NCBI RefSeq assembly: GCF_001446935.1
Contig: NZ_LKKK01000001.1
Span: 372,001-436,000, forward strand
Origin: Pseudomonas sp. TTU2014-080ASC
Lineage (GTDB): Bacteria; Pseudomonadota; Gammaproteobacteria; Pseudomonadales; Pseudomonadaceae
Direction: 5' to 3'
Length of the DNA: 64,000 nt
In this document: positions 39,330-44,891 of the stretch, one piece after another
Numbering within the stretch: position 1 is the stretch's first letter
Layout: every line of letters begins with the position of its first letter
Translations under genes and position numbers: made by a program
Notes under the pieces: model-generated
The model's database searches: none
What the model was told of the DNA's origin: nothing
What the model saw: the letters and a program-made list of their open reading frames with translations, nothing else

Positions 39330-42104
<2,775 letters not shown>

Positions 42105-42341: not shown

Positions 42342-43421
42342 TCAATGCAGACGTTTACGGCACATTAACTGTGCCAGTTTCTCGGCATCCGGACGCTCTA
42401 CAACGCCTTTTTCCGTCACCAGGAAGTCGATCAGATCGGCAGGCGTGATGTCATATACCGGATTAAATGCTGCAACCTCTCCGCCCAGGCCTTCACCGGC
42501 CATCGCCAGAAGCTCTCCAGCCGCACGCTCTTCCAGAACGAGCTCATCACCATGGCACAACGACATATCGATACAGCAGCTCGATGCCACCACCATAACT
42601 CGAACGCCATGATGCATGGCTGCCACGGAGAGCTGGTAAGAGCCAATTTTGCCGACCACATCGCCATTTGCGGCAATTCTGTCCGCACCTAACACCAGCC
42701 AGGTGATCGGCTCCATCTTCATTAAATGAGAAGCTGCAGAATCCGCCACCACAGTGACAGGGATGTGCTCCTGAGCCAGCTCCCAGGCGGTTAGCCTCGA
42801 CCCCAGCAGCAGCGGCCGGGTTTCATCGGTGTAGATGCGTTCAACCAGTTGCCGTCGCCAAGCGGCACGCACGACGCCCAACGCTGTACCAAACCCTCCG
42901 GTTGCCAATGCCCCGGCATTGCCGTGGGTCATTAGACACTGCGCACCTTCCTGATGACGCCGAATCAGCCCTATACCATATTCCGCCATGGCCAGATTGG
43001 CTTCACGGTCAGCCTGATGAATCGCCACTGCTTCAGCCTCCATCAGCGCTGGCAGATGATCAGCACTTGAGTGTCGCTGCAACTGTTCACGCATATGCGC
43101 CAACACCTGCAACAAGTTAAAGACTGCAGGCCGCGCCGACTCCAGCTCAGCAATGTCGCTCAGCACAGACTCAAACCACTGCTCACTACAGCGAAAATGA
43201 CGCCGAACAGACATCGACACTGCATATGCTGCACAGATGGCGATTGCCGCACCACCACGCACGCTCAGGGTTCGAATTGCCTGGGCGACCTCAGTCGCTT
43301 CCACACACGGCAGCCAAACGTTTCTATCCGGCAGCATCCGCTGATCCAGAATATGCACAGCGCCGTCGCACCAGCGGACTGAACAGACCACCTCGGTCGA
43401 TAACAATTGATCGCGCATCAC
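42342..43421 (-). CDS. mtnA: MtnA-like protein (S-methyl-5-thioribose-1-phosphate isomerase family), active site altered
   Basis: 359 residues, full length for MtnA and with its C-terminal VERPDAEKLAQLM intact, beside gyrA and mtaD as in P. aeruginosa. MtnA isomerises methylthioribose-1-phosphate in methionine salvage. Here several conserved catalytic-site positions differ from the family: THCNxG is THGNAG, so the catalytic Cys is Gly167; RGAPAIG is RGGAAIA (55-61); the Gln of DETRPxxQG is Leu206; the Asn of ANKIGTY is Gly257. The catalytic Asp (Asp247, GADRIAANGD) is kept. The Cys change needs one base (TGC to GGC). The open frame suggests the protein is made. It could be an inactive relic, a regulator, or an isomerase with a new substrate. 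Confidence 0.85.
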   Translation of the reverse strand: MMRDQLLSTEVVCSVRWCDGAVHILDQRMLPDRNVWLPCVEATEVAQAIRTLSVRGGAAIAICAAYAVSMSVRRHFRCSEQWFESVLSDIAELESARPAVFNLLQVLAHMREQLQRHSSADHLPALMEAEAVAIHQADREANLAMAEYGIGLIRRHQEGAQCLMTHGNAGALATGGFGTALGVVRAAWRRQLVERIYTDETRPLLLGSRLTAWELAQEHIPVTVVADSAASHLMKMEPITWLVLGADRIAANGDVVGKIGSYQLSVAAMHHGVRVMVVASSCCIDMSLCHGDELVLEERAAGELLAMAGEGLGGEVAAFNPVYDITPADLIDFLVTEKGVVERPDAEKLAQLMCRKRLH

Positions 43422-43553
43422 TCCCCCATACTCAGCCGGCCATTATAGGCACAAGGTCGGCCAAACCTATGCACAGCTCACTGACAACCCTTCATGACCC
43501 AGGCGTTCCCCTATACACTCCCCCTCTTTTTTATGCGTTATGGAGAACCCGCC

Positions 43554-44891
43554 ATGCCCCGCCCTGTGCTTGACCTGCTGCTCCTGCCGGACTGGCTGGT
43601 CCCGGTCGAACCTGCGGGCGTGCTACTGAAGAACCATGGCTTGGGCGTAGCGGACGGAAAAATCGTACTGATCGCGCCCCGCGCAGATGCGCTAAAGCAT
43701 CAAGCCAAACACGTGATGGAACTGCCGGGGCGGCTACTGACGCCGGGCTTGGTGAATGCCCACGGGCATGCAGCAATGAGCCTGTTTCGTGGTATTGCAG
43801 ACGACTTACCGCTGACCACCTGGTTGGAAAAGCACATCTGGCCAGCTGAGGCCAAATGGGTCACCGAGCAGTTCGTGCAGGATGGCACCGAACTAGCCAT
43901 TGCCGAACAGCTGAAAGGCGGAATCACCTGCTTTTCGGATATGTACTTTTACCCGCAAGCAGCCTGCGGGCAAGTTCACGAAAGCGGCATTCGCGCCCAG
44001 ATCACCCTACCCATCCTCGACTTCCCGATTCCCGGTGCCCGTGATGCCGCAGAAGCTCTGCGCAACGGCATGAGACTGTTTGATGACCTGCGCCACCATC
44101 CGCGCCTGAAAGTCGCCTTTGGTCCTCACGCTCCTTACACCGTCAGCGATGACAAGTTGGAGAACATTCGGGTTCTAGCCGACCAGCTGGACGCAGGCAT
44201 TCATATGCACGTTCACGAAACCGCCCATGAGGTTCGCCAGAGCCTGGAGCAAAGGGGCGAACGTCCCCTGGCCCGACTCAATCGCCTCGGTCTCTTGGGC
44301 CCGCGTTTCCAGGCCGTGCATATGACCCAGATAAATGATGACGACCTCGAACTACTGGTCACCAGCAACAGCAGCATCATTCATTGCCCGGAATCCAATA
44401 TGAAGCTGGCCAGCGGCTTCTGCCCGGTTGAAAAACTCTGGCAAGCGGGCATCAACGTAGCCATCGGTACTGACGGCGCAGCCAGCAATAATGATCTCGA
44501 CCTGCTTGGCGAAACCCGCACCGCAGCCCTGCTGGCCAAAGCGGTCTCCGGATCGGCCTGCGCCCTAGACGCCCACCGAGCCTTGCGCATGGCCACACTT
44601 AACGGTGCCCGAGCGTTAGGACTGGATGACCAGATCGGCTCGCTGGAAGTCGGCAAACAGGCCGACTTGGTAGTGTTTAATCTTAACAACTTGGCCCAGC
44701 AGCCAGTGTATGACCCACTTTCACAGCTGATTTACACCGCAGGCAGCGCCTGTACAGAGCACCTGTGGGTCGGCGGCAAGCAATTGCTGGAGAGCGGCGC
44801 CTTGCTGCGCATGGACGAGCAACGCATCATCGACACCGCCCGCGCGTGGGGTGAAAAGATCCGAACCGGCCAGACGGGCACATCTGCATGA
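43554..44891 (+). CDS. mtaD: Methylthioadenosine/S-adenosylhomocysteine deaminase (TRZ/ATZ family)
   Basis: 445 residues from the ATG at 43554, preceded by TGGAGAA; a start 20 codons upstream is not conserved. Amidohydrolase metal ligands: NAHGHAAM (HxH), [18 protein letters not shown] and the Asp in [13 protein letters not shown]. In P. aeruginosa this enzyme deaminates methylthioadenosine to methylthioinosine. Divergent from mtnA and functionally linked to it in methionine salvage. It also may recycle S-adenosylhomocysteine. Confidence 0.93.

Follow-up and report, generated by a model that had tools for sequence, protein, structure and literature searches.

Predicted inactivity and a likely second, non-catalytic role of a Pseudomonas MtnA-family protein that lacks the catalytic cysteine

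The window (the whole 64,000-nucleotide stretch of Pseudomonas DNA analysed here) encodes an MtnA-family protein that has no catalytic cysteine. The protein is predicted to be inactive, and its retention is, we think, likely due to a non-catalytic second role, which would predate loss of the methionine salvage pathway. Loss of the cysteine is common in the genus and accompanies absence of the rest of the pathway. As judged from sequence comparisons, the enzyme part of the protein appears to erode once the pathway is gone, and the protein remains under purifying selection.

An MtnA-family gene with an altered active site

In profile searches the window protein scores 350 bits against TIGR00512 (cut-off 279) and 399 bits against NF004326 (cut-off 271), and it fails the model for ribose-1,5-bisphosphate isomerase, TIGR00511 (139.9 bits, cut-off 314.1). 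The first-pass annotation, made from the sequence alone, had described an intact reading frame with the fold kept, and both descriptions hold: the frame is open throughout (Table 1), the MtnA profiles are matched far above their cut-offs, and an AF2 model of the protein (pLDDT 92.1, pTM 0.91) has MtnA structures such as 1t9k, 6a34 and 2yvk as its top matches in the PDB. Translation probably starts at the ATG of codon 2 (43416-43418), giving 358 codons, because 11 of 12 aligned relatives begin at that Met; in the remaining relative (P0003) the frame runs through it. A genome-wide search for a second, intact mtnA, which had been proposed as a check, found the window gene to be the sole copy in the 4.52-Mb genome (99.96% complete).

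Table 1. Positions of the mtnA-family gene, its altered motifs and its neighbours in the window
Feature	Position	Strand	Basis or remark
mtnA-family gene	42342..43421	-	359-codon open frame, GTG at 43419-43421; profile search and frame read
RGGAAIA, codons 55-61 (family RGAPAIG)	43239..43259	-	Frame read and alignment
Codon 167, GGC, Gly replacing the catalytic Cys (THCN to THGN)	42921..42923	-	Frame read and alignment
Codon 206, CTG, Leu replacing Gln of DETRPxxQG	42804..42806	-	Frame read and alignment
Codon 247, GAC, Asp, second catalytic residue (GADRI), retained	42681..42683	-	Frame read and alignment
Codon 257, GGC, Gly replacing Asn of ANKIG	42651..42653	-	Frame read and alignment
C-terminal tail LMCRKRLH	42345..42368	-	Alignment of same-genus rows
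mtaD-like amidohydrolase	43494..44891	+	NF006549 above cut-off; divergent neighbour of mtnA
gyrA	39330..42104	-	Downstream of mtnA, same strand

A cysteine and an aspartate of the MtnA family carry out the isomerisation, and we take Asn257 and Gln206 to line the phosphate site. For the related ribose-1,5-bisphosphate isomerase, the titles of PDB entries that describe substrate-bound Cys and Asp mutants agree with catalysis by these two residues. Compared with a functional MtnA, the window protein retains the catalytic Asp and lacks the catalytic Cys, the RGAPAIG motif, the Gln of DETRPxxQG and the Asn of ANKIG. The four changes are exactly those that had been reported, as codon reading and alignment of relatives confirm, and they are indeed concentrated at the pocket. 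The Gly codon at 167 is, as had also been pointed out, a single base away from the Cys codon TGC. Arg55, Arg97 and Lys258 are still present alongside Asp247. A metagenome protein 94% identical to the window protein (P0002) differs at residue 57 and shares Gly167, Leu206 and Gly257, which argues against a sequencing error.

Cysteine loss across the genus

The suggested alignment with MtnA and close relatives placed these changes in a wider setting. Among the 396 Pseudomonas genomes that had a match, we read the mtnA of 182, a single gene from each. In this non-random draw, which combines sampled relatives, the top of two similarity lists and outliers and leaves out G342 and G106, 93 genes have Cys at residue 167, 86 have Gly, 2 have Ser and one has Ala, and 89 of the 182, the window gene among them, therefore lack the cysteine. 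The loss is not confined to this genome; it is a repeated event in the genus. Among the window protein and its best 120 matches in a protein search, THGN or TYGN replaces THCN in 51 of 121, and three more fell outside the search string. Cys-less clusters in this set bear the labels P. putida, P. soli, P. entomophila and P. monteilii.

On a protein tree built with the active-site columns masked, the distribution of Cys and not-Cys over 181 rows demands a minimum of 14 changes (12 with the first rows). The losses are nested inside separate Cys-bearing groups, and the window mtnA forms a long, deep branch by itself.

Salvage pathway genes and the catalytic cysteine

Of 398 genus genomes, 156 match the mtnC profile (TIGR01691) above its cut-off; the scores are sharply bimodal, and six further genomes have weak matches under the cut-off. 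All 40 genomes with mtnC among the 182 read keep Cys167 and show no change in the tallied active-site columns; none of the 89 Cys-less genomes has mtnC above the cut-off in the profile search, weak matches far under it occurring in three of them (G307, G345 and G385). Among 80 chosen genomes, mtnP (TIGR01694) is above cut-off in 10 of 10 with mtnC, 13 of 30 with Cys and no mtnC, and none of 40 Cys-less; for mtnB (TIGR03328) the corresponding counts are 5/5, 0/16 and 0/24, and mtnK is above cut-off in none of 24 Cys-less genomes tested. Apart from the three weak mtnC-profile matches just named, mtnC, mtnB and mtnP separate cleanly as markers. Since mtnP, mtnK, mtnC and mtnB are below cut-off in the Cys-less genomes tested, these genomes appear to encode no recognised enzyme that directly makes the MtnA substrate or consumes its product. 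A Fisher test of mtnC against Cys in the first 169 genomes gives p 6e-14 with relatedness ignored; tree-based pairing gives 0-2 differing pairs out of 9 and about 1 out of 8, each differing the way one would expect, numbers that are too few for significance.

The mtnD profile (PF03079) was dropped as a pathway marker, as other cupins give continuous E-values, reaching 5.2e-29 in the Cys-less genome G371. Many mtnC-less genomes have an ARD-family (PF03079) match of middling strength, about 1e-15 to 1e-30, which is possibly a separate ARD-like cupin. G223 lacks mtnC and has a Cys-bearing MtnA; its mtnP is split over two frames (G223:C1:449384-450104; 1.4e-33 and 1.2e-49), perhaps a pathway caught during decay.

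The first-pass annotation had proposed looking for mtnB, mtnC and mtnD in the window genome. Profile searches there found no match to mtnC, nor to mtnP or mtnK, and a match to mtnB only under the cut-off (1.7e-8); for mtnD the outcome is less clear-cut, the PF03079 match being weak (5.1e-6) and the profile being blurred by genus-wide cupin relatives. PF01048 is the phosphorylase and nucleosidase superfamily. Its sole match in the window genome lies within a 512-aa frame that, judged by its length, is probably an AMP nucleosidase. A single match, in a frame of about 500 codons, was likewise found in 10 of 12 Cys-less genomes examined, and the Cys-less genomes G117 and G124 have additional, weaker matches. 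By these searches the window genome holds neither a substrate supply for MtnA (mtnP, or mtnN with mtnK) nor the means of using its product (mtnB, mtnC and mtnD).

Stepwise changes in the pocket

We counted departures from the residue found in mtnC genomes over 23 active-site columns in the 80 genomes. The mean is 0.0 in genomes with mtnP and mtnC (n=10), 0.23 in those with mtnP only (n=13), 1.41 in those with neither gene and the Cys kept (n=17, G223 included) and 4.85 in those with neither gene and the Cys lost (n=40). Of the 40 rows with mtnC, 37 have Tyr or Phe at residue 39, mostly Tyr, and 2 have Cys; Cys39 is found in 86 of 88 Cys-less rows tallied and in 18 of 53 rows that have Cys167 without mtnC. 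It arises in parallel in many lineages, with 16 changes on the tree, and in the window it is encoded at 43305-43307. Cys248, adjoining Asp247, occurs in 86% of 83 Cys-less rows outside the G001 clade and in 5 of 50 mtnC-less relatives that still have Cys167. Both cysteines stand alongside Cys167 in intermediates, namely G331 and the group of G060, G231, G410 and G288. We read Cys39 as more probably an early pocket change than a migrated catalytic cysteine; in tree pairs of Cys39 against Cys167, about 2.8 of 8 go the expected way (p 0.25).

All six genomes of the G001 clade have replaced Arg55, Arg97, His166, Cys167, Asn168, Asp247, Asn257 and Lys258 and keep full frames. This clade, G345, G064, G270 and G377 have each lost at least one of Arg55, Arg97 and Lys258 with their frames intact. 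Asp247 is not universal among Cys-less relatives and has become Glu in several lineages. The ratio of differences in the pocket to those in the rest of the protein, over 20 columns, is 0 in mtnC rows, where pocket dN is 0, 0.69 in the 50-genome and 0.79 in the 18-genome Cys-less clade, and 1.25 in the seven-row clade that holds the relatives of G001. Omega for pocket and rest is 0.041 and 0.081 in the 50-genome clade, 0.066 and 0.189 in the 18-genome clade, and 0.156 and 0.187 in the G001 clade. The two largest Cys-less clades thus show less variation in the pocket columns than elsewhere in the protein, and so some constraint on the pocket, whether structural or tied to a ligand, persists in them.

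Retention and selection

An mtnA match is present in all 385 near-complete genomes of the genus sample (396 of 398 of all). Of 127 near-complete genomes taken from the order as a whole, 64 have one. All 89 Cys-less genes read, G342 being left out, are full-length at 356-358 residues. Across 181 rows, 116 positions are at least 98% conserved regardless of pathway state.

Omega, calculated pairwise (NG86) at dS 0.15-1.2, has a median of 0.084 for pairs with mtnC (n=721), 0.142 for pairs with Cys and without mtnC (n=1046) and 0.173 for Cys-less pairs (n=3339), the last including pre-loss time where a pair spans separate losses. Within groups, where pairs share the loss, omega is 0.018-0.122 in seven CESRP genomes, 0.05-0.194 in seven TYGN genomes, 0.145-0.22 in G003, G239, G297 and G366, and 0.137-0.192 in five tallied rows of the G001 clade. 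The dN/dS analysis proposed for the window gene thus gives an answer for related Cys-less clades (0.018-0.22 after loss), to which all these figures refer, the window gene itself being a long branch with no close DNA relative in the sample. Because the ratio of median omega in mtnA to that in mtaD is 1.39 in Cys-less genomes against 0.80 with mtnC (0.99 for Cys without mtnC), selection on Cys-less mtnA is mildly relaxed, not neutral. The earlier expectation that the gene is no decaying relic is borne out, since the low post-loss omega and the full frames speak strongly against a relic or pseudogene.

At the 3' end of mtnA, synonymous diversity is unremarkable (0.89; the gene median is 0.87), and this argues against a DNA-level constraint before gyrA. 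The only broken copy noticed is in G342 (G342:C1:3295142-3296216; L186, L202), where mtnA is split by a frameshift into pieces that share 98-99% identity with one member of the 50-genome Cys-less clade. G339 (L056) has a Cys-bearing mtnA with an in-frame TAG close to the start. The apparent truncation of mtnA in G106 was discounted, since an N run breaks the assembly at that spot.

Genomic context and the C-terminal end

The window gene stands between two genes that we take to be mtaD and gyrA (Table 1), with a gap of 237 bp to gyrA. Its position beside mtaD, remarked on in the first-pass annotation, is a constant of the loci compared: mtaD adjoins mtnA in 103 of 103 4-kb loci and gyrA does so in 99, these loci representing 102 genomes (G001 twice), one locus being outside the genus. 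The presumed metal ligands of MtaD are complete in 99 of the 103 loci; three have Gln at one place and one lies partly outside the aligned piece. The ligands persist although mtnP is absent from the Cys-less genomes tested.

The LMCRKRLH tail stands out most among the features shared across the genus: it is identical in 169 of 182 same-genus rows, with near variants in the remaining 13, and it also ends intact, Cys-bearing enzymes. In three Cys-less sets, omega over twelve positions within 343-359 is 0.002-0.03. The tail is probably exposed or flexible, as pLDDT is 72 in the last block of the model. An SRKRLH end is found in G490 and G518, two other members of the same family. It is also found in G419 (L208; same family, another genus), whose protein keeps Cys167 and has Arg97, Asp247, Asn257 and Lys258 replaced; in its 4-kb locus gyrA adjoins mtnA and no mtaD was found. 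Outside the family, the 25 genes read, the best-scoring in the order, all retain Cys167, Arg97, Asp247, Asn257 and Lys258, and none of them has the LMCRKRLH tail; three of the 25, from one family, end LM....LH.

Discussion

By descent the window protein is an MtnA; by its active site and pathway context, as read from sequence, it would not pass as a working isomerase, and methylthioribose-1-phosphate isomerase activity of Cys-less MtnA is predicted to be dead. We propose that a second, non-catalytic role was in place in Pseudomonas MtnA before the salvage pathway was lost. The mtnBCD genes would have gone first and mtnP after them; early pocket changes at Asp199, Arg248, Asn257 and Tyr39 would have followed, and Cys167 would have been lost last. 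The kept role would be the binding of a partner protein, perhaps by way of the family-specific tail at the C-terminus, although the tail's link to it is a guess. Such binding would be independent of the pocket, since not one of the key catalytic and presumed phosphate residues is left in the G001 clade. We see even chances that Pseudomonas MtnA is a two-job protein, with a second, partner-binding job that needs no active site and is kept by every species, and an enzyme half that burns out at each pathway loss.

The first-pass annotation had offered a pseudoenzyme, a regulator or an isomerase with another substrate. The pseudoenzyme is supported, with the Cys lost, the pathway absent and the frame kept, and a regulator is possible; another substrate fits poorly, as related lineages also lose the partner Asp and presumed phosphate-binding residues, and a known substrate-making enzyme is absent from every Cys-less genome tested. 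The regulatory idea can be made specific as our main rival, a sugar-phosphate sensor like eIF2B-alpha in which the dead pocket binds a sugar phosphate and so switches a partner interaction. The two proteins belong to the same fold family, Arg55, Arg97 and Lys258 persist in the window protein, and in the Cys-less clades of 50 and 18 genomes the pocket still varies less than the remainder of the protein. We nevertheless hold the sensor to be unlikely, because Asn257 and Gln206, presumably part of the phosphate site, are lost in the window and because the G001 clade and four further genomes, each short of at least one of those three residues, indicate that pocket binding is not universally kept. 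There is a human precedent for a sensor: the former catalytic pocket of eIF2B-alpha binds sugar phosphates (PMC8187479).

That the protein is still an active enzyme with changed chemistry, using a cysteine that has migrated to position 39 or 248 or acting on a different substrate, seems to us quite improbable. The clustering of changes at the active site is real, Cys39 is nearly universal in Cys-less rows and rare in mtnC rows, Cys248 lies beside Asp247 in most Cys-less rows outside the G001 clade, and pseudoenzymes with migrated residues are known (PMC10211241). Both cysteines, however, precede the loss, being found in mtnC-less relatives with Cys167; T. maritima MtnA carries a Cys at the aligned place in addition to the catalytic one, and G345 lacks both Cys39 and Cys248. 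Asp247 has moreover turned to Glu in several lineages, presumed phosphate residues are gone in the G001 clade, and no constant new set of residues replaces the old. Very improbable, finally, is a relic kept merely for its position before gyrA or for lack of time to decay: mtnA does lie upstream of gyrA on the same strand, nearly all loci share the arrangement and one frame-broken copy exists (G342), but omega after the loss is low, 3'-end synonymous diversity is ordinary, every other Cys-less gene read has a full frame, and a gap separates the two genes.

The repeated loss of the cysteine has consequences beyond this gene. Pseudomonas proteins named methylthioribose-1-phosphate isomerase, for example in clusters labelled P. 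putida, P. soli and P. entomophila, are without the catalytic cysteine, and metabolic models that credit those species with a salvage isomerase are probably wrong for that reason. The genus offers a repeated natural experiment, with an active site that is invariant with the pathway and eroding without it while the remainder stays under selection, and a hidden second function becomes directly testable. If MtnA does have two jobs, it would be a bacterial counterpart of the passage from sugar-phosphate isomerase to eIF2B regulatory core, caught in transition in roughly a dozen separate lineages within a single genus, and many database proteins would be misnamed as isomerases.

That metabolic enzymes can have second roles, and that some proteins are pseudoenzymes, is well established (PMC10211241). 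A review of the salvage pathway (PMC6302742) covers, in its accessible part, MtnA promiscuity and a P. aeruginosa route via MTA deamination, and that part does not mention a Cys-less MtnA; a proteomic paper, likewise in its accessible part, treats P. aeruginosa MtnA as a salvage enzyme (PMC9748083). Among the papers listed by a search whose coverage mostly excludes subscription journals, none, judged by titles and the beginnings of abstracts, deals with a Cys-less MtnA.

Set against characterised MtnA (TIGR00512; B. subtilis 2yvk, T. maritima 1t9k), the window protein is without the catalytic Cys, Gln206 and Asn257 and has a family-specific tail, and its genome is without mtnP, mtnB, mtnC and mtnK above cut-off. 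Ribose-1,5-bisphosphate isomerase (TIGR00511) is a related sugar-phosphate isomerase whose Cys135 and Asp204 mutants were crystallised with substrate, according to PDB titles. The regulatory subunits of eIF2B (alpha, beta and delta) are likewise non-catalytic members of this fold family, kept for protein assembly and regulation; they are distant in sequence, at 10-21% identity, and eukaryotic with other partners, whereas here the loss is repeated within one bacterial genus. Human MRI1/MRDI still carries the enzyme's residues. It resembles the present case as an MtnA orthologue with a second role (4ldq, PDB title 'Mediator of Rho Dependent Invasion'), and differs in that this role is, as far as known, unrelated.
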